A DNA stretch of 64,000 nucleotides from the NCBI RefSeq assembly GCF_019457905.1, contig NZ_JAHZSV010000001.1, positions 186,001 to 250,000 of the forward strand, written 5' to 3'. The notes below the pieces were generated by a model that did no database searches, was not told the DNA's origin, and worked only from the letters and a program-made list of their open reading frames with translations. Position 1 is the stretch's first letter, and the number at the start of each line of letters is the position of its first letter. This document shows positions 13,507-49,707 of the stretch, in pieces. The position numbers were made by a program, and so were the translations under genes. Source of the stretch: Flagellimonas abyssi. Its GTDB lineage: Bacteria; Bacteroidota; Bacteroidia; Flavobacteriales; Flavobacteriaceae.

Positions 13507-14091
13507 ATGAAAAAGAATTTGATTTTATTAGGTGTCCTGTTTATAGGATTTACCACTTTTGCCCAGAATACGAACAATGTACAACTAGGAGTGCGTGGTG
13601 GTGCCAATTTTGCAACCGTGGCCGGTGACGATTTTGACAGCCCCGATTCAAGGACATCCTTTTACTTGGGTCTTTTGGCCGAAGCTCCTTTATCCGACCA
13701 TGTGTCGTTGCAGCCAGAGGTTTTTTACTCTGCACAAGGTTTTGATATTACCGATGAACCGGATACCCCAGATGCGCAATTTCAGGTAGACTATATACAA
13801 GTTCCTGTGCTTTTAAAGTTTTATATAGCAGATGGACTTAACATTCACGGTGGACCACAGTTCGGTTTTAAAGTGAACGAAGAACTTGATTTTAATCCAG
13901 GAGAGGATTCTGGTGATTTTGATTCGGATTCCATAAACAGCTTTGATTTTCAGGGAACAGCTGGTGTAGAATATAAATTCCCATCAGGATTCTTTATTCA
14001 AGGAAGATATTCTTATGGTTTTTCCGAGATGATCGAGGATGTAGACGTACATAACTCCGTATGGTCCGCAGGTCTTGGATTTATGTTCTAA
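13507..14091 (+). CDS. Small outer-membrane beta-barrel protein (PorT/OMP_b-brl family)
   Basis: A 194-residue protein with signal peptide MKKNLILLGVLFIGFTTFAQ. Alternating hydrophobic strands follow: VQLGVRGGANFATV at the start, LQPEVFYSAQGF, VPVLLKFYIADGLNIHGGPQFG, and a final strand ending in aromatic Phe (SAGLGFMF), the normal barrel-assembly signal. The pattern fits the eight-stranded Bacteroidota OMP family often annotated porin family or PorT-like. A disordered Asp-rich loop (EDSGDFDSDS) probably faces outward. It has its own terminator. No function can be assigned beyond being an outer-membrane protein. Confidence 0.85.
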   Translation: MKKNLILLGVLFIGFTTFAQNTNNVQLGVRGGANFATVAGDDFDSPDSRTSFYLGLLAEAPLSDHVSLQPEVFYSAQGFDITDEPDTPDAQFQVDYIQVPVLLKFYIADGLNIHGGPQFGFKVNEELDFNPGEDSGDFDSDSINSFDFQGTAGVEYKFPSGFFIQGRYSYGFSEMIEDVDVHNSVWSAGLGFMF

Positions 14092-40321: not shown

Positions 40322-40918
40322 TCAATGTCTCTTTTCCAGAACTTTGACCACATCCTTGAGACTATAATTTTTTGCCTTCAGCAAAATCAAATAATGGAAC
40401 AACAGGTCGGCGCTTTCGTTCAAGAAAAGCTCCTCGTTGTCATCTTTGGCCTCTATCACAGTTTCCACAGCCTCTTCCCCTACTTTCTGGGCTATTTTGT
40501 TAATGCCCTTTCGGAACAGGGAAGCCACATAACTATCCGGATTCTCTTGGTCATTTTTTCTGGATTCGATGATGTTTTCCAGCGTTGACAAGAAACCGTA
40601 CCCTTGAATATTTTCTTCTGCCCAGCAGGTGTCGGTGCCCTCGTGGCAAGTAGGGCCAACTGGATTCACTTTAACCAAAAGGGTGTCGTTATCACAATCC
40701 ACTTGCATATCCACAAGGTTTAAGAAATTGCCACTTTCCTCACCTTTGGTCCATAAACGCTGTTTGGAACGGCTGAAAAAAGTGACTTTTTGGGTTTCTC
40801 GGGTTTTTTCAAACGCTTCTTGGTTCATGTAGCCCAACATCAACACATTTTTGGTGGTTGCATCTTGAACAATAGCTGGTACAAGTCCGTCTGAATTTTT
40901 ATTGAAGTCTATTTGCAT
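40322..40918 (-). CDS. hisIE: Bifunctional phosphoribosyl-AMP cyclohydrolase / phosphoribosyl-ATP pyrophosphatase
   Basis: A 198-residue fusion catalysing steps 2 and 3 of histidine synthesis. Residues 1-~108 are HisI, with LWTKGEESGN and the zinc-binding CHEGTDTCW region plus Asp/Cys in MQVDCDNDTL. About 110-198 are HisE (LENIIESRKNDQEN...KVGEEAVETVIEAKDD), the MazG-like pyrophosphatase with its Glu-rich metal site. It is the last gene of the his operon, 2 bases after hisF, and converges on the DUF2807 gene. Confidence 0.95.
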   Translation of the reverse strand: MQIDFNKNSDGLVPAIVQDATTKNVLMLGYMNQEAFEKTRETQKVTFFSRSKQRLWTKGEESGNFLNLVDMQVDCDNDTLLVKVNPVGPTCHEGTDTCWAEENIQGYGFLSTLENIIESRKNDQENPDSYVASLFRKGINKIAQKVGEEAVETVIEAKDDNEELFLNESADLLFHYLILLKAKNYSLKDVVKVLEKRH

Positions 40919-40920
40919 TG

Positions 40921-41676
40921 TTATATTCTTACAGGAATTCCTTCTTCCTTTAATTCTTTTTTGAGTGTATTGATTTCGATTTCCTTAAAATGAAAAACGC
41001 TGGCAGCCAAGGCAGCATCCGCTTTTCCATCTTTAAAAGTATCCGTGAAATGTGATATGTTTCCCGCACCACCTGATGCAATCACTGGAATGTTAACCAA
41101 TCCGGACAATTTTGCCAAAGCTTGGTTGGCAAAGCCATTTTTGGTGCCATCGTGGTCCATCGAAGTAAACAAAATTTCACCAGCACCACGTTCTTCCACT
41201 TCTTTAGCCCAATCAAAAAGATTCAGTTCCGTAGGTACCTTCCCTCCTACCAGATGGACTTTCCATTGTCCGTCTATTTGTTTGGCATCAATGGCAACAA
41301 CGATACATTGTGAACCGAATTTGCCGACCAATTCATTGATCAATTCCGGTTTTTTTACCGCGGATGAGTTGATGGAAACCTTATCGGCCCCGTTTTTGAG
41401 GAGAATATCCACATCTTCCACGGACGAAATCCCGCCGCCCACGGTAAAGGGTATATTGATGGTCTCCGCTACGTGATACACCAGTTCCGCTAAAGTTTTT
41501 CGTTTTTCTTCGGTCGCTGAAATGTCCAAAAAAACCAATTCATCGGCACCTTCTTTGGCATAAATGGATGCTAGTTCCACAGGGTCTCCTGCATCACGTA
41601 GATCAACAAAGTTGATTCCTTTTACGGTGCGTCCGTTTTTAATATCGAGACAGGGTATGATTCTTTTTGTAAGCAT
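40921..41676 (-). CDS. hisF: Imidazole glycerol phosphate synthase, cyclase subunit
   Basis: A 251-residue TIM barrel that, with HisH, makes imidazole glycerol phosphate and AICAR from PRFAR. Catalytic Asp11-equivalent in [14 protein letters not shown] and Asp130-equivalent in [12 protein letters not shown]; phosphate-binding loops VGGGISS and ASGGAGN. The C-terminal [14 protein letters not shown] is standard. It is separated from its usual partner hisH by four genes, including a transporter and a DinB protein. Confidence 0.95.
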
Positions 41677-41695
41677 TTATTTTTATTTGATTGAA

Positions 41696-42022
41696 CTAAT
41701 GTGAGACTACTTTTAAACCAATAATCGAAGCAATCAAGGTGGTTATAAAAAATAATCTCCAAAATGTTGCGGGCTCTTTAAAAACAAAAATTCCAAACAG
41801 TACGGTCCCCACTGCACCGATACCGGTCCAAACCGCATATGCTGTACCTATTGGTAATTCTTGTGTTGCTTTGACCAACAAAAACATGCTGATTGTAAGG
41901 CAAACTACAAATCCTATGTACCAATACGTCATTTCCGTCCCGGTTGTTTCCTTGGCCTTTCCAAGACAGGCTGCAAATGCAACTTCAAAGAGTCCTGCAA
42001 TTATCAATAGTATCCAGTTCAT
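41696..42022 (-). CDS. sugE: SMR transporter, SugE/Gdx-like (guanidinium exporter type)
   Basis: A 108-residue four-helix small multidrug resistance protein. The essential membrane Glu is Glu13 in LFEV. The core LPIGTAYAVWTGIGAVGTVL and C-terminus IIGLKVVSH are characteristic of the SugE/Gdx branch rather than EmrE, whose function is guanidinium export. The frame extends to 42058, but MNWILLIIAG is the family start. It sits inside the his operon between hisF (19-base gap) and the DinB gene (16-base gap). No guanidine riboswitch is visible upstream, so expression is presumably driven by the his promoter. Assignment to Gdx is by remembered motifs. Confidence 0.85.
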   Translation of the reverse strand: MNWILLIIAGLFEVAFAACLGKAKETTGTEMTYWYIGFVVCLTISMFLLVKATQELPIGTAYAVWTGIGAVGTVLFGIFVFKEPATFWRLFFITTLIASIIGLKVVSH

Positions 42023-42038
42023 AGGCTGTATTGGAATG

Positions 42039-42557
42039 CTAGCTTTCGTTTTTTGCATTCAGGTTGACCCCACCGTAAAAACCAAGGTCTTTATTTTGTA
42101 AAATTTTGGTCCATAATGCTATTTGCCCTGTGTGGTATGACAAATGTTCCGTAACATGGATAATGTTGCCCACTCCGGAAAAATTAAACCCTTGAACGTT
42201 TCGTTTACGCAATAATTCATTGAGCGGGGCATCGTAGAACGCTCTTTTGGCGTCCGAGATGGTGTTTTCCAGTTTTTTGACAAGCTCTGCTTTGGAATAG
42301 CCTGAATCTGTGGAAAATTCTTCATCCCTTATGCGTTCATCCTCCAAATTTTGAATGGATGCAATCCCATATTGGGTGATGTTTCCGCACAGGTGAAGAA
42401 TAAGATTGGCAATACTATTGCTCGATTCATTCGGTTTTCCCCAAAGTTGTTCCTCAGACAATTGATCTAAACAGATTTTGATCATGCGAAGACTCTCGTT
42501 CATTCGATAGCCTGCGTTCCATACCAATTCTTCCTGGAGTTCTCTTTCTTTATCCAT
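42039..42557 (-). CDS. DinB superfamily protein (DUF1572-like)
   Basis: A 172-residue four-helix bundle of the DinB/YfiT superfamily. Potential metal ligands are His in LILHLCGNI and the pair in [13 protein letters not shown]. Related proteins are metal-dependent thiol transferases or of unknown role. Its start overlaps the hisA stop by 8 bases, so it is translated from the his operon transcript although it has no known histidine function. Confidence 0.82.
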
Positions 42558-43281
42558 TTTTAAGAATATATTGTTCCAACTGTTTTAAACTGATCTTGCC
42601 TTCATAAATGGCTTTGCCTATGATTGTGCCCTCACAACCAATTTCTGCAAGTTTGGGGAGTTCGTCAAAGGTGGACACCCCACCACTGGCAATTAAATGT
42701 AAGCCTTTTTTGGTTTGGGCCAACATTTTTTGATACAAGTCGAACGCAGGCCCTTGCAGCATGCCATCCTTGCTTATATCCGTGCAAATCACATATTCGA
42801 TACCTTCGGATTGATACTGCTGAACGAAGGGAATCAGCTCCAAATCCGACTCTTCTTGCCAGCCCGAAACCGCCACTTTCTCGTTGTTGGCATCGGCACC
42901 TAGAATGATTTTTCTAGCCCCGTATGTTGACACCCAGCTCAAAAAAGTTTCCCTGTCTTTTACTGCAATGCTTCCACCGGTAATTTGATGTGCTCCGCTT
43001 TCAAAGGCAACATGCAGGTCGTCTCCTGATTTTAATCCACCGCCAAAGTCAATTTGCAAACTAGTTTTTAAGGCAATGGTCTCCAATACTTTGTAGTTGA
43101 CAATATGTTTGGATTTGGCCCCGTCCAAATCTACCAAATGTAGGTACTGGATACCGTGTGCCTCAAACTCCTTGGCCACTTCCAGCGGATTTTCATTATA
43201 GACTTTTTTGGTGCTGTAATCACCTTTAGACAGACGTACGCATTTTCCATCGATAATGTCTATGGCTGGAATCAATCTCAT
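42550..43281 (-). CDS. hisA: ProFAR isomerase
   Basis: A 243-residue TIM-barrel aldose isomerase of the histidine pathway (ProFAR to PRFAR). Catalytic Asp8-equivalent in [18 protein letters not shown], second Asp in [15 protein letters not shown], phosphate loops DFGGGL and ASGGVS. It overlaps the DinB gene by 8 bases and follows the GNAT gene by 3 bases. Confidence 0.95.
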
Positions 43282-43284
43282 TTT

Positions 43285-43701
43285 CTAATCATATTTTACT
43301 CGTTCTATGGACATCCACATTTTTGAATCTCCCACTTTTTTAAAGCCCAGGTTTTCATAAAAACTATGGGCATCCAATGTTTTTAGTGCTACGGTGTTGA
43401 CTTTCTTCACATCAGGTTGGTCCAAAATATATTGCACCAATTTTTTTCCAAGTCCTTTGCCCTTGTTGGGATCAAAGACGACAACATCCATAATATAGGA
43501 AAAAACCAAACCGTCTGTCATCATTCTGGCGTAAGCAACCTGCTCACCGTTCTTATTGAACATTCCAAAGCAGATACTTTTTTCAATGGTCATCAAGGTT
43601 TCGTCCCAGGTTCTTTCCTTTCCCCAGTATGTGGAGGTTACCTCTTTATGGATTCTTGGGATATCCAATTTCTCCTTGTCCTTCAAAATATGGAACTCCA
43701 T
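43285..43701 (-). CDS. GNAT family N-acetyltransferase
   Basis: A 138-residue single GNAT domain with the acetyl-CoA-binding loop VVVFDPNKGKGLGKKLVQYIL and the C-terminal LDAHSFYENLGFKKVG. The acceptor is unknown. It is embedded between hisH (1-base gap) and hisA (3-base gap), tightly co-transcribed. GNAT genes at this place occur in other flavobacterial his operons as far as I recall, but the link to histidine is not known. Confidence 0.85.
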   Translation of the reverse strand: MEFHILKDKEKLDIPRIHKEVTSTYWGKERTWDETLMTIEKSICFGMFNKNGEQVAYARMMTDGLVFSYIMDVVVFDPNKGKGLGKKLVQYILDQPDVKKVNTVALKTLDAHSFYENLGFKKVGDSKMWMSIERVKYD

Positions 43702-43702
43702 G

Positions 43703-44287
43703 TCAGGTAATATTTAGAAAATTGTTCAATATTTCACTACCTATATCGCTGCTTTTTTCGGGATGGAACTGTGTCCCATAAAAATTTTCTTTCTGCAGAG
43801 CTGCACTATATTCCACATCGTATTCGGATTTGGCAATAGTTTCAGAGCCAATCGGAGCATAAAAACTGTGCACCAAATAGATATAGGCTTTCTCAGGAAT
43901 ATTTTTGAACAGCTCACTTTTTAAATCCGAAATCTGGTTCCATCCAATTTGAGGGACTTTGACCTTATTGGAAAATTTGACTACATCCAAATCAAAAATA
44001 CCCAAGCCTTCCGTGTTCCCCTCTTCTGATGAGTGGCACATCAGCTGCATACCCAAACAGATGCCCAAGACGGGTTGTTTCAAAGTCGGAATCACCTGAT
44101 CCAGTCCAGTCGCCCTCAACTTTGACATGGCCGAACTTGCTTCCCCAACTCCAGGAAAAATTACTTTATCGGCATTTCGGATTTCTTCTGCATCATGGCT
44201 CAAAACAGCTTCGTAACCTAAGCGTTGTATGGCAAACATGATACTTTGAATATTTCCTGCTCCGTAATCGATTATTACAATCTTCAT
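43703..44287 (-). CDS. hisH: Imidazole glycerol phosphate synthase, glutaminase subunit
   Basis: A 194-residue class I glutamine amidotransferase supplying ammonia to HisF. Nucleophile Cys in LGICLGMQLM; His and Glu in GTQFHPEKS; oxyanion-type PGVGEA present. An 82-base gap with a dispersed palindrome separates it from hisB, the only sizeable gap in the operon. Confidence 0.95.
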   Translation of the reverse strand: MKIVIIDYGAGNIQSIMFAIQRLGYEAVLSHDAEEIRNADKVIFPGVGEASSAMSKLRATGLDQVIPTLKQPVLGICLGMQLMCHSSEEGNTEGLGIFDLDVVKFSNKVKVPQIGWNQISDLKSELFKNIPEKAYIYLVHSFYAPIGSETIAKSEYDVEYSAALQKENFYGTQFHPEKSSDIGSEILNNFLNIT

Positions 44288-44303
44288 GTATTCTTTAATC
44301 TTT

Positions 44304-44364
44304 TGTCATTTCGAGCAAAGCGTGAAATCTAGATTTATCAGTCGCAAGCTCCTTCGAAATGACA
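44304..44364. repeat. Dispersed palindromic element in the hisB-hisH gap
   Basis: Perfect 11-base arms TGTCATTTCGA (44304-44314) and TCGAAATGACA (44354-44364) flank an imperfect inner part (GCAAAGCGTGAAATC). I recall the sequence CATTTCGAGCnAAGCGnGAAATC as a common intergenic repeat in flavobacterial genomes. On RNA it would fold into a long hairpin within the his transcript. Confidence 0.6.
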
Positions 44365-44369
44365 GTTTT

Positions 44370-45506
44370 TTATAGCATACCCTTGGTAGAGGGCAGCACC
44401 ATTTTTTCAGCATCCCGTTTTACCGCCATTTTAATGGACTTGGCAAAAGCTTTGAATATGGCCTCGATTTTATGGTGTTCGTTGGTTCCTTCGGCCTTGA
44501 TGTTCAAATTGGCTTTGGCGCCATCGGTAAACGATTTAAAAAAGTGCATGAACATTTCCGTTGGCATATCACCCACTTTTTCACGTTTGAATTCGGTATC
44601 CCAGACCAACCAATTCCGTCCTCCAAAATCAATGGCAACTTGTGCAAGACAATCGTCCATGGGCAAGGCAAAACCATAGCGTTCAATGCCCAACTTATTG
44701 CCCAAAGCTTTGGAAAACAGCTCGCCCAAGGCAATAGCGGTATCTTCAATGGTGTGGTGTTCATCCACCTCTAAATCGCCATCTACTCTGATTTCCAAAT
44801 CCATTTGTCCGTGCCTAGCTAGCTGGTCCAACATATGGTCAAAAAACGCCAGACCTGTATTGATGTCACTTTTTCCTGTGCCGTCAAGGTTAATTTTGAT
44901 ATAGATATCGGTCTCGTTAGTTTTTCGGGTTATTTCCGCAACACGATTTTCCAATTTTAGAAATTCATAAATTTTCTCCCAATCGTTGCTTTCCAAGGCG
45001 ATGTACTCATCCAATTCTTCACGTTTTACTGTAATTTCCCCTGTGCCCAAATGTGTTTCATCATTGATAAAGATTCCTTTGGCACCCAGATTTTTGGCCA
45101 ATTCAACATCTGTCAAACGGTCACCGATCACAAATGAATTGGCTAAATCATATTCATCGGAAAAATAGGAGGTCAACATACCCGTACCTGGTTTTCGGGT
45201 ATTGGCGTTGTCTTTTGGAAAGGTCCTGTCAATAAAAACATTATCGAAATTTACACCTTCGTTCTCAAAAGCTTTGATGATGAAATTATGTACGGGCCAA
45301 AACGTATTCTCAGGAAAAATGTCGGTCCCAAGGCCATCTTGATTGGTGATCATCACCAGTTCATAGTCCAACTCTTTGGCAATTTTGCCCAAATAAGTAA
45401 ATACCTTAGGGTAAAAAACCATTTTTTCAAAAGCATCTATCTGCTCATCTACAGTTTCCTTGATGATGGTTCCATCACGATCAATAAACAATACTTTTTT
45501 GCCCAT
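44370..45506 (-). CDS. hisB: Bifunctional histidinol-phosphatase / imidazoleglycerol-phosphate dehydratase
   Basis: A 378-residue fusion. Residues 1-~165 form the HAD phosphatase ([11 protein letters not shown] nucleophile Asp; [23 protein letters not shown]). About 185-378 form the IGP dehydratase with the metal-binding [15 protein letters not shown] and a second HH ([14 protein letters not shown]). It performs steps 6 and 8 of the pathway. Its start overlaps the hisC stop. Confidence 0.95.
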
Positions 45507-46552
45507 TAGTTCAATTCTTTTAAAATGGCTATCAATTTTTTGTTCTCCTCTGGTGTGCCTACGGTAAATCGCAACGTATTCTCACAGAGCGGCTGCGTGC
45601 TTCGGTTACGCACCACCACTTGTTTATCCAATAATTGTTGGTAGCGTTTGTTGGCATCGTCAACTTTGGCCAATACAAAATTGGCGTCGGTTGGATATAA
45701 TTCCCTTACAAATTCCAAACCGTTCAAAGCATTGATCAATTCATCTCTTTCATCAAGAATCTGTTGCACCTCTCTATTGACCAAGTCTTGGTTCAACACC
45801 CGTTGTAAGGCACGTTGCTGCGTCAATTGGTTGACATTGTAGGGTGGTTTGATTTTGTTCAAAACACCGATAATTTCTTCTGATGCATAGCATATGCCCA
45901 ATCGGATACCAGCCAGTCCATAGGCTTTGGACAGCGTTTGGGTCACAATCAAATTGGGATAGTTATCCAATTTCGACAACCAACTTTCATCCTTTGAAAA
46001 ATCGATATAGGCTTCGTCAATCACCACCAAGCCCTGAAAGTATTTCAGCAATTTTTCGATGGCTTCTTCTTTGAAAGCGTTGCCCGTAGGATTATTTGGC
46101 GAACAAATGAATAACAACTTGGTTTTGATATTCACCGCCATTAAAATTTCATCCACATTGGGTTCGAAATCATTGGTTAACAGAACCTCCTTGTTTTTAA
46201 CTGCATTGATGCCTGCCAGCACCTTGTACATTCCGTAAGTTGGTGGCAGCGTGATAATATTATCCTGATTCGGTTCACAAAACGCCCTGTAGATCAAATC
46301 CAAGACCTCGTCGCTCCCATTCCCGAGTAAAATTTGATTTTCTGACACTCCTTTCTGCTCCGCCAACAACGATTTTAAACTTCGCTGGTAAGGGTCTGGG
46401 TAGCGGTTGACGCCATTATCGAAGGGATTTTCGTTGGCATCCAAAAATATCATCTCCGAACCATCCGAGACATATTCATCACGTGCGGAAGAGTACGGTT
46501 GTAGCTTAAGAACCGATTCCCTCACCAATTTATTTAAATCAAACCCTTCCAT
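45506..46552 (-). CDS. hisC: Histidinol-phosphate aminotransferase
   Basis: A 348-residue class I/II PLP aminotransferase. Key sites: [23 protein letters not shown], Schiff-base Lys in [16 protein letters not shown], and the C-terminal Arg in [12 protein letters not shown]. It overlaps hisD and hisB by one base at each end (ATGA/TAATG-like junctions). Confidence 0.95.
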
Positions 46553-47835
46553 TATTTTAAACTTTTTAATCTAAGGGTTACCGCATTTTTATGTGCCTGC
46601 AATCCTTCCGCTTCAGCCATCAGTTCAATGGCAGTTCCGATACCTTTGATGCCTTTTTCGGATATTTTCTGAAAGGTCATGCTCTTCATAAAACTATCCA
46701 GATTCACACCGCTATATTGCTTGGCGTAGCCATTTGTGGGCAAGGTATGATTGGTGCCCGAAGCATAATCCCCTGCACTTTCTGGCGTATAGTTTCCAAT
46801 AAAGACCGAACCCGCATTCTGAATGTTCTCGAGATAAAAGCCCTCATTTTCCACACAAACAATAAAGTGTTCAGGACCATATTCGTTAATCAAATCCAAA
46901 GCTTCTTGGTCATTTTTGGCTAGAATGAGCTTGCTGTTACCGATAGATTTACGGGCGATTTCTTCTCTGGGCAGGAGTTGTATCTGATTTTCAATTTCCT
47001 TTTCAACGGCCTTAACCAACTTTTCCGAAGTGGAGACCAAAATAACTTGACTGTCGACCCCGTGCTCGGCCTGACTCAACAAATCCGAAGCAACAAAAGC
47101 GGCATTGGCAGAATCGTCAGCAACCACCAACAATTCACTTGGGCCTGCGGGCATATCGATAGACACATTGTATTGAGTGGCCAGTTGTTTTGCGACAGTC
47201 ACATATTGATTCCCAGGACCAAAGATTTTGTACACTTTCGGAATGCTCTCCGTTCCAAAGGTCATCCCTGCAATGGCTTGAATGCCACCTACTTTAAATA
47301 TTTGTGTTACACCGCACAATTGGGCCGTATATAAAATCGCTGGATTGATTTCCCCATTTTTATCAGGTGGGCTACAGAGCACAATTTCTTCACACCCAGC
47401 AAGTTTGGCTGGAATAGCCAACATTAAAATTGTAGAAAAGAGTGGCGCTGTTCCTCCAGGAATGTACAATCCCACTTTCTGGATGGGGCGTTTTTCTTGC
47501 CAGCACTCCACACCAGGCATGGTTTCCACTTCTACTTTTGAAGTTTTCTGTGCCGCATGGAATTTTTCAATGTTGGATTTGGCCAGCGTAATGGCTTGTT
47601 TCAACGCATCAGAAACAGAATTACTGGCGTTATCAATCTCATCATCGTTCACTAAAAGTGATTCCAAACTCACTTTATCAAACTGGGCTGTATATTTTTT
47701 GATGAGGGTATCGCCCTCGGCCTGTACCTCCTTAAAAATACTGTTGACAATTTCCTCAATATCGGAAACGGTGTGGGTAGGACGCTTTAAGATTTCTTCC
47801 CACTCCGTGGGCTGTGGATAGTTGATACGTTGCAT
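46552..47835 (-). CDS. hisD: Histidinol dehydrogenase
   Basis: A 427-residue zinc-dependent NAD enzyme performing the last two oxidations to histidine. Signature GPGNQYVTVAKQLA, DMPAGPSELLVV, the base region EHGVDSQVILVS, the Glu-His pair in NEYGPEHFIV, and the HTLPTNGYAKQYSGV segment are all present. It overlaps hisC and hisG by one base at each end. Confidence 0.95.
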   Translation of the reverse strand: MQRINYPQPTEWEEILKRPTHTVSDIEEIVNSIFKEVQAEGDTLIKKYTAQFDKVSLESLLVNDDEIDNASNSVSDALKQAITLAKSNIEKFHAAQKTSKVEVETMPGVECWQEKRPIQKVGLYIPGGTAPLFSTILMLAIPAKLAGCEEIVLCSPPDKNGEINPAILYTAQLCGVTQIFKVGGIQAIAGMTFGTESIPKVYKIFGPGNQYVTVAKQLATQYNVSIDMPAGPSELLVVADDSANAAFVASDLLSQAEHGVDSQVILVSTSEKLVKAVEKEIENQIQLLPREEIARKSIGNSKLILAKNDQEALDLINEYGPEHFIVCVENEGFYLENIQNAGSVFIGNYTPESAGDYASGTNHTLPTNGYAKQYSGVNLDSFMKSMTFQKISEKGIKGIGTAIELMAEAEGLQAHKNAVTLRLKSLK

Positions 47836-48692
47836 TACAATACCATTTTTTCAATAGGACACACCAAAATACCTTCTGCACCAGCTGCTTTCAGCTCATC
47901 GATAACCTCCCAAAAAGTCTCCCGATTGATTACGGTGTGCACGGAGCTCCATCCTTCCTCCGCTAATGGCAAAACGGTGGGGCTGCGCATTCCGGGAAGA
48001 ATGGAAATAATCTCTTCCAACTTATCGTTCGGGGCATTCATCAAAACATACTTGTTGTTCCGCGCCTGCAATACCGATTTGATCCTGAATTGGATTTTTT
48101 TCAGCAGTTCCTTGCGCTCTTGGGAAATGGTGGGCGATACCGCCAATACGGCCTCACTTTTCAACATCACTTCCACTTCCTTTAAATTGTTTTTGAAGAG
48201 CGTGCTGCCACTGGAAACAATATCACAAATTCCATAGGCCAAGCCAATATTTGGTGCGATTTCCACCGAACCGTTGATGATGTGCAAATCTGCCGTTACA
48301 CCTTTGGATTCCAAATACTCCCTTACGGTGTTCGGGTACGAAGTGGCAATTTTTTTACCTTCAAAATCTTTGACTGAATTGTAGGTTACACCCTTGGGTA
48401 CGGCCAAGGACACGCGACATTTAGAAAAATTAAGACGCTCCGCGATGGAAATGTCTTTTCCTTTTTCAATCAAAACATTTTCCCCAATAATGGCAATGTC
48501 AACTACCCCATCCCTTAAATATTGAGGGATGTCGCCATTTCGTAAATAAAAAACTTCCAAAGGAAAATTTCTTGAGGTAGCCTTTAACTGATCCTTTCCA
48601 TTATCGATGGAAATACCACAATCTTTTAAAATAGCGAGGGAATCCTCGTTCAATCGGCCACTTTTTTGGACTGCAATTCTAATTTTTGTCAT
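47835..48692 (-). CDS. hisG: ATP phosphoribosyltransferase (long form)
   Basis: A 285-residue long-form HisG with the C-terminal ACT-like regulatory domain (about 215-285), so it should be feedback-inhibited by histidine without HisZ. The catalytic PRPP-binding motif lies in YGICDIVSSGSTLFKNNL. It is the first structural gene of the operon; the attenuator described at 48728-48846 lies 36 bases upstream. Confidence 0.95.
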   Translation of the reverse strand: MTKIRIAVQKSGRLNEDSLAILKDCGISIDNGKDQLKATSRNFPLEVFYLRNGDIPQYLRDGVVDIAIIGENVLIEKGKDISIAERLNFSKCRVSLAVPKGVTYNSVKDFEGKKIATSYPNTVREYLESKGVTADLHIINGSVEIAPNIGLAYGICDIVSSGSTLFKNNLKEVEVMLKSEAVLAVSPTISQERKELLKKIQFRIKSVLQARNNKYVLMNAPNDKLEEIISILPGMRSPTVLPLAEEGWSSVHTVINRETFWEVIDELKAAGAEGILVCPIEKMVL

Positions 48693-48727
48693 TTTTTTAT
48701 CGTTTTGTCCGAAAAATCAAATGGGTA

Positions 48728-48762
48728 CAAAAAATAAACCCGTTTGATTTCTCAAACGGGTT
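48728..48762 (-). terminator. Attenuator terminator of the his operon
   Basis: An 11-bp perfect stem (48737-48747 with 48752-48762) has a 4-base loop. On the minus strand it is followed by TTTATTTTTT (plus 48728-48736). It lies between the leader peptide and hisG. Its first arm on the transcript contains CCCGTTTGAG (plus 48751-48760), which can pair instead with CTCAAGCGAG in the leader (plus 48797-48806): nine of ten positions pair, one of them G-U. Confidence 0.85.
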
Positions 48763-48792
48763 AGAATATATTTTAAAAACAACAATACATTT

Positions 48793-48846
48793 CTATCTCG
48801 CTTGAGGGCAAGTATAAAAATGATGATGTGTGTTTCTATTTCTCAT
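48793..48846 (-). CDS. hisL: Histidine operon leader peptide (17 aa, three consecutive His)
   Basis: ATG-to-TAG frame reading MRNRNTHHHFYTCPQAR. Three adjacent His codons (residues 7-9) lie 15 bases before the segment that can form the antiterminator. A ribosome stalled on the His codons leaves CTCAAGCGAG free to pair with the terminator's first arm, and one that reaches the stop codon covers it. That is the standard logic of amino-acid attenuation. The gene is too short for normal gene callers. Evidence is the coincidence of His codons, terminator and pairing immediately upstream of hisG. Confidence 0.85.
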   Translation of the reverse strand: MRNRNTHHHFYTCPQAR

Positions 48847-48853
48847 TATGCTT

Positions 48854-48881
48854 CAAAAATAGGATATATTTTTATATCAAA
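48854..48881 (-). promoter_or_regulatory. Predicted his operon promoter
   Basis: The minus strand has TTTG (48881-48878), 16 bases, then TATTTTTG (48861-48854), a full TAnnTTTG -7 box. The leader ATG is at 48846, so the transcript would have only a few bases ahead of the start codon, close to leaderless. The spacer is at the short end of the known range. Confidence 0.5.
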
Positions 48882-48891
48882 AAAGAAGAAT

Positions 48892-49707
48892 TTAGTTATT
48901 TCCCAAAATTAATGGCAATCCGTCATCGCCGGAACCAACCACAACAATTTTAGCATTCGGAGATTCCGCTAATTTTAAGGTTGCATCTATACCTTTGTCC
49001 TGCAATATCTTATCTGTTAAAGATGCACTCAAAATACGGTTGGCATCGGCCTTACCCTGTGCTTCGATTCTAACTTTTTCAGCTTCCTTTTCTGCAGTCA
49101 CCAATCTAAATTCATATTCCAATGACTCCTGTTCCTGCTTCAATTTTCGCTCAATGGCATCCTTGATGGTTGGCGGTAAGGTAACATCTCTCACCAGTAC
49201 CTCATTGAGTTGAATATACTGGTCTTCCACAATTTTCTGGGTCTCCTCAAAAATCTCTTGTTGGATTGCATCACGTTTACTGGAGTATAATTGTTCGGGA
49301 GTATAACGCCCAACAACGCTACGTGCGGCAGACCTGATGGCAGGAAGTAGAACGCGCTCTATGTACTGTTCACTTTTTTCCTGATGTAACTTTCCGAGTT
49401 GCTCATATTTGGGCTGGAACCACACGGATGCCTCCAATTTAATGTCCAGACCATTGGATGAGAGTACGTTCATTTTTTCGAGTTGTTCTTGCTGCCGTAC
49501 TTCGTAAACAAAGACTTTGTTCCACGGTGCTACAAGATGAAAGCCTTCTCCCAAAGGTGGTTCGTCGGTAACAACCCCTCCACCGAAATATTTGTACAAA
49601 ACCCCAGCTTCACCGGAACCAATGGTCACCGTTGACCTAGATGCAAAAATGATTAAAAAAATAATCGCTGCCAAAGCCGGCAACGCAATCTTTGGTAATT
49701 TATCCAT
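48892..49707 (-). CDS. SPFH/Band 7 (prohibitin-like) membrane protein
   Basis: A 271-residue protein with an N-terminal membrane helix (ALPALAAIIFLIIFA), a SPFH domain (about 28-200; GEAGVLYKYFGGGVVTDEPP, SVVGRYTPEQLYSSKR) and an Ala/Glu-rich coiled-coil tail. It resembles bacterial prohibitin homologues that form large membrane rings and associate with FtsH-type proteases. It follows the VWA gene by 12 bases in an apparent fabG-VWA-SPFH unit. No terminator was seen between it and the his leader. Confidence 0.88.
   Translation of the reverse strand: MDKLPKIALPALAAIIFLIIFASRSTVTIGSGEAGVLYKYFGGGVVTDEPPLGEGFHLVAPWNKVFVYEVRQQEQLEKMNVLSSNGLDIKLEASVWFQPKYEQLGKLHQEKSEQYIERVLLPAIRSAARSVVGRYTPEQLYSSKRDAIQQEIFEETQKIVEDQYIQLNEVLVRDVTLPPTIKDAIERKLKQEQESLEYEFRLVTAEKEAEKVRIEAQGKADANRILSASLTDKILQDKGIDATLKLAESPNAKIVVVGSGDDGLPLILGNN

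Follow-up and report, generated by a model that had tools for sequence, protein, structure and literature searches.

Evidence for a ribosome-mediated attenuator of the histidine operon in Flagellimonas abyssi and related Bacteroidota, with a fifth strand complementary to the terminator apex

The element upstream of hisG in Flagellimonas abyssi very probably attenuates transcription of the his operon by a ribosome-mediated mechanism (probability roughly 0.93). The parts of the element, their conservation and pairing among relatives, the covariation of a protector hairpin (1:2) and of the terminator, and the modelled dependence of the alternative pairing on ribosome position support this reading, which had been put forward in a first-pass annotation of the same DNA. 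All coordinates (Table 1) refer to the window, the whole stretch of 64,000 nucleotides that was analysed.

Table 1. Features of the attenuator and of the his operon in the window.
Feature	Positions	Strand	Basis
Leader ORF MRNRNTHHHFYTCPQAR, 17 codons and TAG (ATG at 48846, TAG end at 48793)	48793..48846	minus	conservation, shuffle test
Three regulatory His codons, CAT CAT CAT	48820..48828	minus	sequence; permissive zone of A-site scan
Predicted -7 promoter box TATTTTTG (consensus TAnnTTTG; predicted start site ~48849)	48854..48861	minus	consensus and position from PMC9723704
Hairpin 1:2 (protector), 14 bp, one bulged A, loop CCTCAA	48788..48822	minus	folding, covariation
Strand 2 CTCAAGCGAG of the antiterminator, within the final codons of the leader	48797..48806	minus	sequence, alignment
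Strand 3 CCCGTTTGAG, common to antiterminator and terminator	48751..48760	minus	alignment, covariation
Intrinsic terminator hairpin 3:4, 11 bp, loop GAAA	48737..48762	minus	script, covariation, folding
Terminator U-run TATTTTTT	48729..48736	minus	sequence
Strand 5 TTTGATTTTTCGGAC, complement of the terminator apex (loop with the tops of strands 3 and 4)	48707..48721	minus	duplex versus shuffles, permutation test
hisG, first structural gene	47835..48692	minus	PF01634, PF08029
hisD, hisC, hisB, hisH, GNAT gene, hisA, DinB-like, small transporter, hisF, hisIE	40322..47835	minus	ORFs, Pfam in part

Among the genes downstream of hisG, Pfam matches correspond to histidinol dehydrogenase, IGPD (hisB), PRA-CH/PRA-PH (hisIE) and a GNAT gene; a matching aminotransferase is taken as hisC, a glutamine amidotransferase as hisH, and two His_biosynth proteins as hisA and hisF. 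Which of the two His_biosynth proteins is HisA and which HisF is our assignment by order and sequence. Three genes outside the pathway lie within the his run on the same strand (41696-43701); a GNAT acetyltransferase sits between hisH and hisA, and what we take to be a DinB-like gene and a small multidrug-transporter-like gene lie between hisA and hisF.

The 17-codon His-rich frame that had been noticed upstream of hisG is present, with its HHH run. A short ATG-started ORF (8-40 amino acids) containing HHH arose in none of 5000 shuffles, in two-base blocks, of the 320 nt upstream of hisG, and the whole window holds one other short HHH-containing ORF, at 13657. Likewise found were the 11-bp terminator with its T-run, which reads AACCCGTTTGA-GAAA-TCAAACGGGTT followed by TATTTTTT, and the proposed pairing between the end of the leader and the terminator arm, in which CTCAAGCGAG matches CCCGTTTGAG at nine of ten positions with one G-U. 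Leader, terminator and alternative pairing had been regarded as the complete set of elements of classical attenuation; all three were located, and the mechanism additionally needs hairpin 1:2, which had gone unmentioned. This hairpin, CATTTTTATaCTTGC-CCTCAA-GCGAGATAGAAATG, starts with the third His codon and folds with a z-score of -5.3, while the 118-nt leader as a whole folds at -36.7 kcal/mol (z -7.9), as well as which none of 200 shuffles fold. Hairpin 1:2 completes the strand set of a classical trp/his-type attenuator. The trp attenuator of E. coli is described by a four-strand model with the pairings 1:2, 2:3 and 3:4, and the same mutually exclusive pairings are found here, for another amino acid, in a lineage that lacks Shine-Dalgarno sequences (PMC9723704), and with an extra strand 5.

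The conservation of the element was investigated in the best 80 of 530 relatives confirmed by a HisG protein scan, all of them named records, and in a family sample in which HisG was found in 166 of 199 genomes and the best-scoring 30 loci were examined. A His-rich leader precedes hisG in all 80 named relatives and in all 30 best-scoring other family genomes, and a script detected a terminator at all 111 loci, the window included. Of the 111 leader-to-terminator sequences, 105 are distinct. The distance from the His run to the stop codon is conserved, and the number of His codons ranges from two to five, with YHH in one leader (L053) and HTH in two (L088 and L091). The synonymous codon CAC accounts for 38 of 415 leader His codons, a tally that contains eight wrong triplets from L062 and L080. 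In three leaders (L034, L041 and L047) the Gln codon has become a stop, which makes the peptide three codons shorter, and the RNA strand is retained. It could be argued that the terminator belongs to the Band-7/SPFH gene (Pfam) that lies upstream on the same strand and ends at 48892, ~130 nt before the terminator, and that the His-rich ORF is accidental. This we consider extremely improbable, given that all 110 loci from relatives have conserved the leader His codons, the frame and the terminator distance, that His-rich leaders recur in the class, and that no shuffle out of 5000 produced such an ORF.

Pairing was evaluated in an alignment of 101 of the 111 loci, from which ten near-duplicates were excluded. 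For hairpin 1:2 and the terminator taken together, 91.9% of the cells are paired, versus 33-50% in slid registers (terminator 99.8%, hairpin 1:2 85.7%), and both sides have changed in 91 cells, compared with 29.6 ± 4.2 in shuffles, none of 500 of which reach the observed value; in hairpin 1:2 such changes affect six of the 14 pairs. For antiterminator 2:3, counted over nine of its ten positions with the conserved mismatch excluded, 96.1% of the cells are paired versus 17-55% in slid registers (maximum 54.9%). Neither the His codons, present in 110 of 110 leaders, nor this alternative pairing has thus been lost in close relatives, a loss that had been named as an argument against attenuation. 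Covariation in the alternative stems, which the first-pass annotation had proposed to look for, is found in hairpin 1:2 and the terminator and hardly in the antiterminator, where both sides have changed in three cells and 45 of 500 shuffles reach that number. This weakness is due to strand 3 being nearly invariant, as is expected of a strand with several partners.

The dependence on translation was investigated with a model in which only the RNA ahead of the ribosome is folded and the ribosome is assumed to cover 13 nt, counted from its A-site codon. The mean number of modelled 2:3 pairs is ~9 with the A-site on the His codons and 8.9 at codon -8 from the stop, after which it falls to 5.9, 3.6, 1.6, 0.6 and 0.3 at codons -7 to -3; the zero obtained with the ribosome at the stop codon is a consequence of the assumed footprint. 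A His codon is located at -9, adjoining the edge of the permissive stretch, in 105 of the 111 leaders, and a further one at -7 in 29. According to the model, the position of the regulatory His codons is such that strand 2 is free while the ribosome is on them and covered once it is at the stop. When no ribosome is modelled, at least five pairs of 2:3 form in a fraction of 0.50 of the 111 loci and 1.3 pairs in the window. As 2:3 still forms without a ribosome in half of the loci, protection by hairpin 1:2 is strong in the window, not everywhere.

In the proposed switch, RNA polymerase would start ~3 nt before the leader ATG, as predicted from the promoter box, and a ribosome would load on the near-leaderless leader. 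When His-tRNA is scarce, this ribosome would stall at the His codons and cover strand 1, so that hairpin 1:2 would be blocked; strand 2, which lies in the Gln-Ala-Arg codons, would then pair with strand 3, the terminator would be blocked and hisG would be transcribed. When His-tRNA is plentiful, the ribosome would reach the stop codon and cover strand 2, hairpin 3:4 would form, and transcription would end near 48729. With no ribosome on the leader, 1:2 and 3:4 would both form in the window and transcription would end as well. The start site, the ribosome stalling, the termination and the histidine response in this scheme are predictions from sequence.

A different explanation of the conserved leader end is that histidine causes the nascent peptide to arrest the ribosome by way of its Gln-Ala end, as arrest peptides do in other systems. 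The Gln and the Ala before the last codon are near-invariant (103 of 111 leaders at each position), but the last residue varies (R, S, W, N or K), the three leaders that stop at the Gln codon still retain the RNA strand, and class loci have unrelated leader ends with complementary RNA (by eye). Such variation of the leader end with retention of the RNA strand fits a constraint on RNA pairing, and an arrest peptide is in our judgement very improbable beside attenuation through His-codon stalling.

The predicted start site derives from a -7-like box that ends 7 nt upstream of the leader ATG in the window. Since TAnnTTTG has been located at -12 to -5 relative to the start site in Flavobacterium psychrophilum (available part of PMC9723704), a gap of 7 nt predicts a 5′ UTR of 3 nt. 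A strict TAnnTTTG with a gap of 7 or 8 nt to the leader ATG is present in the window and in 19 of 19 near relatives checked (L002-L018, L021 and L040), while the boxes of L019 and L025 depart from the consensus in the final G. Among 134 loci (the 111 and 23 of the class), counts that include close relatives and are compared with shuffles in two-base blocks, a good -7-like box lies within 70 nt before the leader ATG in 107 and is lacking in 27. The end of the box falls 4-20 nt from the ATG in 89 of the 134 loci, versus 13.4% in shuffles, at less than 4 nt in none, versus 3.7%, and at exactly 7-8 nt in 60. In the window the -33 element has a non-consensus spacing of 16 nt, as judged by eye against the consensus. 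A leader 5′ UTR of 3-4 nt is thereby predicted for the window and the 19 near relatives, and this predicted near-leaderless start looks new. For F. psychrophilum, the available text puts leaderless mRNAs at 5.5% and the median length of the 5′ UTR at 24 nt (PMC9723704), and in the Bacteroides thetaiotaomicron map, as far as available, ~3.7% of the 5′ UTRs are shorter than 10 nt (PMC7366714). A precedent is the ilvBNC attenuator of Corynebacterium glutamicum, whose leader is discussed as a case of leaderless initiation in the available part of PMC11857589, although that attenuator belongs to Actinobacteria and to branched-chain amino acids.

At the gathering threshold, no Rfam family matched the window. 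When E-values up to 10 were admitted for 361 nt, 35 matches were obtained, none at its family cut-off, and His_leader (RF00514) and T-box were absent from them. The best match, among unrelated sRNAs, was ncr1575 (29.2 bits, E 0.018, cut-off 60); this and a match to Phe_leader (22 bits, E 0.2, cut-off 55) are below their cut-offs and were taken as chance. Control of the terminator by a protein, such as a repressor or a DnaA-like factor, or by a T-box or riboswitch would have parallels, as his operons of other phyla are known to be controlled in these ways (PMC9413887 and PMC10989985, in the parts available) and a DnaA-like factor has been proposed for the E. coli his attenuator (PMC10989985, same part). 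Here, Rfam lists no T-box, His_leader or riboswitch at the locus, and control of this kind would leave unexplained a His-codon run at the position given by the ribosome model; we give it next to no credence compared with ribosome-mediated attenuation.

The his attenuator of E. coli and Salmonella (RF00514) likewise combines a His-codon run, an antiterminator and a terminator before his genes, according to the available part of PMC9413887. The element described here differs from it in having no Rfam match, in the location of its antiterminator strand in the last leader codons (in many class loci spanning the stop, by eye), in its predicted near-leaderless start, and in strand 5 between the terminator and hisG. 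We take the two leaders to be unrelated in sequence. His-codon leaders with terminator and antiterminator have also been described in the Bacillus cereus group, Peptostreptococcaceae and Erysipelotrichales (PMC9413887), but these are Firmicutes, with few species each, and the word stem “bacteroid” is absent from the available text of that paper. A paper of 2010 stated that proven leader-peptide systems were confined to Proteobacteria and Actinobacteria, and added bacilli to these (PMC2965389, available part). Short leader genes have been counted by distance in Bacteroidetes among other phyla, with no his case noted in the available part of PMC4833913, and the available text on B. thetaiotaomicron holds a general remark on leader-peptide-like ORFs (PMC7366714).

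The closest precedent is the 2021 work on F. psychrophilum, the available text of which reports strong clues to leader-peptide attenuation upstream of amino-acid operons, as well as 5′ elements of hisG and pheA, the one of hisG being structured, conserved in other genera of Flavobacteriaceae and without Rfam match (PMC9723704). That hisG element is very probably the same as the one described here, to which, relative to the available text, the sequence, leader, strands, proposed mechanism, extent beyond the family and strand 5 are now added. Because of these leader-peptide clues and the hisG element, the principle of attenuation in this lineage is not new, and the remark in the first-pass annotation that no description was known needs correction in this respect; it holds to the extent that, beyond PMC9723704, no other description of this attenuator in Bacteroidota was found in searches of open-access papers (subscription papers being outside their scope).

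The terminator is followed by a further conserved strand. In the window, strand 5 forms 15 consecutive pairs with the terminator apex GTTTGAGAAATCAAA, at -16.4 kcal/mol versus -6.2 in shuffles, and ends 14 nt upstream of the hisG ATG. In the 104 of 111 loci with a spacer of at least 30 nt (seven spacers were too short), the duplex was compared with dinucleotide-preserving shuffles and was better at p ≤ 0.01 in 76 and at p ≤ 0.05 in 86, with 18 above 0.05. Palindromic repeat-like DNA lengthens the spacer between terminator and hisG in L033, L056, L087, L102 and L111 (by eye); of these, L033, L056 and L102 have no significant strand 5, and that of L087 is far from hisG. For 28 of 35 distinct apices, the strand 5 of the same locus fits better than foreign strand 5 sequences do on average. 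After the addition of 40 loci from the order and the class, a duplex of -11 kcal/mol or better was found in 119 of 143 loci, a best-per-locus count that is biased towards pairing; in this set the partners at the first loop position are A-T in 37 loci, T-A in 36, C-G in 31 and T-G in six. The anchored permutation test is without that bias: strand 5 was placed by strand 3 alone (119 of 143 loci), and of the four further positions, which comprise the loop and the 3′ edge, 3.09 were complementary versus 2.01 ± 0.20 after permutation, with none of 2000 permutations reaching the observed value. This test uses one locus per loop class (23 classes) and a tree-free statistic. Among the 144 loci with a spacer of at least 30 nt, 140 of the terminator-plus-spacer sequences are distinct. 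A MAFFT alignment of terminator and strand 5 (79 of 93 loci) misplaced strand 5 in some rows, and no pair count was made from it.

Strand 5 could instead be a DNA operator or the remnant of a duplicated terminator. The apex is nearly palindromic, so that in some species strand 5 resembles it in either orientation, and the permutation test takes one locus per loop class and no tree. However, many species have only the complement of the strand 3 top and loop without a second half-site (by eye), which makes an operator unlikely; the complementarity reaches into the loop and covaries with it, as the anchored test indicates; and a directly duplicated terminator would carry the loop itself instead of the complement. 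We therefore consider this alternative unlikely. Strand 5 is a conserved addition that can form pairs with the terminator apex, most likely within the read-through mRNA. The covariation of strand 5 with the terminator loop looks new. To our knowledge, the covariation of an extra strand into the loop of a terminator has not been known from other attenuators.

In 93 of 120 loci, 13-17 nt separate the 3′ end of strand 5 from the hisG ATG. The distance is 24-34 nt in 14 loci (L099, L119-L127, L130, L131, L133 and L137, with L099 and L123 at the same place) and larger still in L087 and L095. Terminator and strand 5 are 13-17 nt apart in 74 of 120 loci and at least 25 nt apart in seven, in six of which the distance to the ATG is still 14-20 nt. 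Outside the family, strand 5 was found at p ≤ 0.05 in 14 of 15 loci with the same terminator type (L161 being the exception), a set that leaves out other terminator types such as those of L154, L155 and L163. Among the 30 class loci with the best HisG scores, none of the 22 testable ones has strand 5 at that level, which is a mild negative control since several spacers run into hisG through the choice of an inner ATG. Both of these sets were compared with shuffles in two-base blocks.

A role of strand 5 in controlling the first termination decision was ruled out, as it is transcribed after the U-run; for the same reason it can act only on the read-through mRNA or on another molecule. Computed stability is higher for 3:5 than for 2:3 in 78 of 104 loci; for the window, 3:5 with -15.1 comes close to 3:4 with -15.7. 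At equilibrium, the minimum-energy structure of the read-through RNA of the window retains the terminator in all three ribosome states, so that any role of strand 5 depends on the order of folding. Under equilibrium folding of 85 loci, the mean number of pairs between apex and strand 5 is 1.2 without ribosome, 2.4 with a stalled ribosome and 1.5 with the ribosome at the stop, and the mean accessibility of the hisG start is unchanged across these states (0.63, 0.62 and 0.62). In the genome itself, strand 5 has one exact place, its own, and eight with two mismatches versus five for the reversed control; this search thus does not point clearly to further copies or to targets in trans.

We tentatively suggest, with less than even confidence, that the his leader in much of Bacteroidota may be a five-strand switch, in which strand 5 would take over strand 3 and the loop after read-through, displace the antiterminator and add a second layer of control, or in which strand 5 would be the trans target of the terminated leader RNA. 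Translation of hisG would be the most plausible second layer, because strand 5 so often ends 13-17 nt before its ATG. For the trans reading there is a parallel in rnTrpL of Sinorhizobium, reportedly an attenuator RNA acting in trans, where the terminated leader RNA has such a second role; by comparison, trans action of the strand 5 system is conjectural, and the 4-nt loop of the window would be a poor foothold.

The distribution of the element beyond the family was investigated with a covariance model, which matched (E ≤ 0.01) in 94 of 196 genomes of the order and in 95 of 295 of the class, many of the matches being weak and not near hisG. HisG was found in 127 of the 295 class genomes, 31 of which have a model match directly upstream (hand comparison), including 11 from the order of the window itself; the model misses other sequence types. 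Among the 30 class loci with the best HisG scores of the 127, which are not a random sample, an ATG-started His-rich short ORF is present in 28, or 29 when the leader of L184 with GTG is added by eye, and a terminator was found by script in 25. In L189, neither His-rich leader nor terminator was seen by eye in 350 nt. Most class loci have another terminator, of the type GGGCTTACC...GGTAAGCCC, to the 5′ arm of which the leader end is again complementary (by eye), and the complement often spans the leader stop codon, as in GGTAAG and GGTAGG (by eye). The rewired leader ends GGCGAGCC and GGCGGGCC of L154 and L155 match a rewired arm GGCTTGCC over 8 bp (by eye). In L183 and L188 no terminator was detected by script behind the His-rich leader; their leaders end in HHSS, followed by GGAGGA complementary to the last codons, and these loci perhaps represent a translational or Rho-type variant. 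Judging from these genomes, an attenuator of this kind is widespread in related bacteria, in many of them with strand 5, and distant lineages retain the architecture with other terminators (partly by eye).

Further leaders were found in the genome of F. abyssi. The gene trpE (L194, contig C24) is preceded by a Trp-rich leader MINRISNNWWWINLRRTS with a terminator, and the end of a -7-like box TATATTTG lies 5 nt upstream of the leader ATG (by eye), so that a near-leaderless start may apply here as well. A Phe-rich leader MTNAYFWNRFYFYFFFGREAGLL precedes pheA (L197, contig C19) and a Val/Ile-rich leader MKRNKQVIVEVVIIPEME one ilvD (L195, contig C1), each followed by a terminator-like hairpin, that of ilvD identified by eye. 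Upstream of a second ilvD-like gene (L196), no terminator was found by script and an Ile-containing short ORF lies nearby. Attenuation may be a general strategy of the lineage.

Attenuation of this kind is known, and the element is a widespread variant of it, with a leader predicted to be near-leaderless and a fifth strand whose covariation is seen in the sequences compared. In ribosome-mediated attenuation, the first ribosome has to be tightly coupled to RNA polymerase. A leader ORF that seemingly begins almost at the 5′ end of the RNA, in a widespread attenuator, would provide a natural assay of this coupling, and annotators gain a model for hisG leaders that is absent from Rfam.
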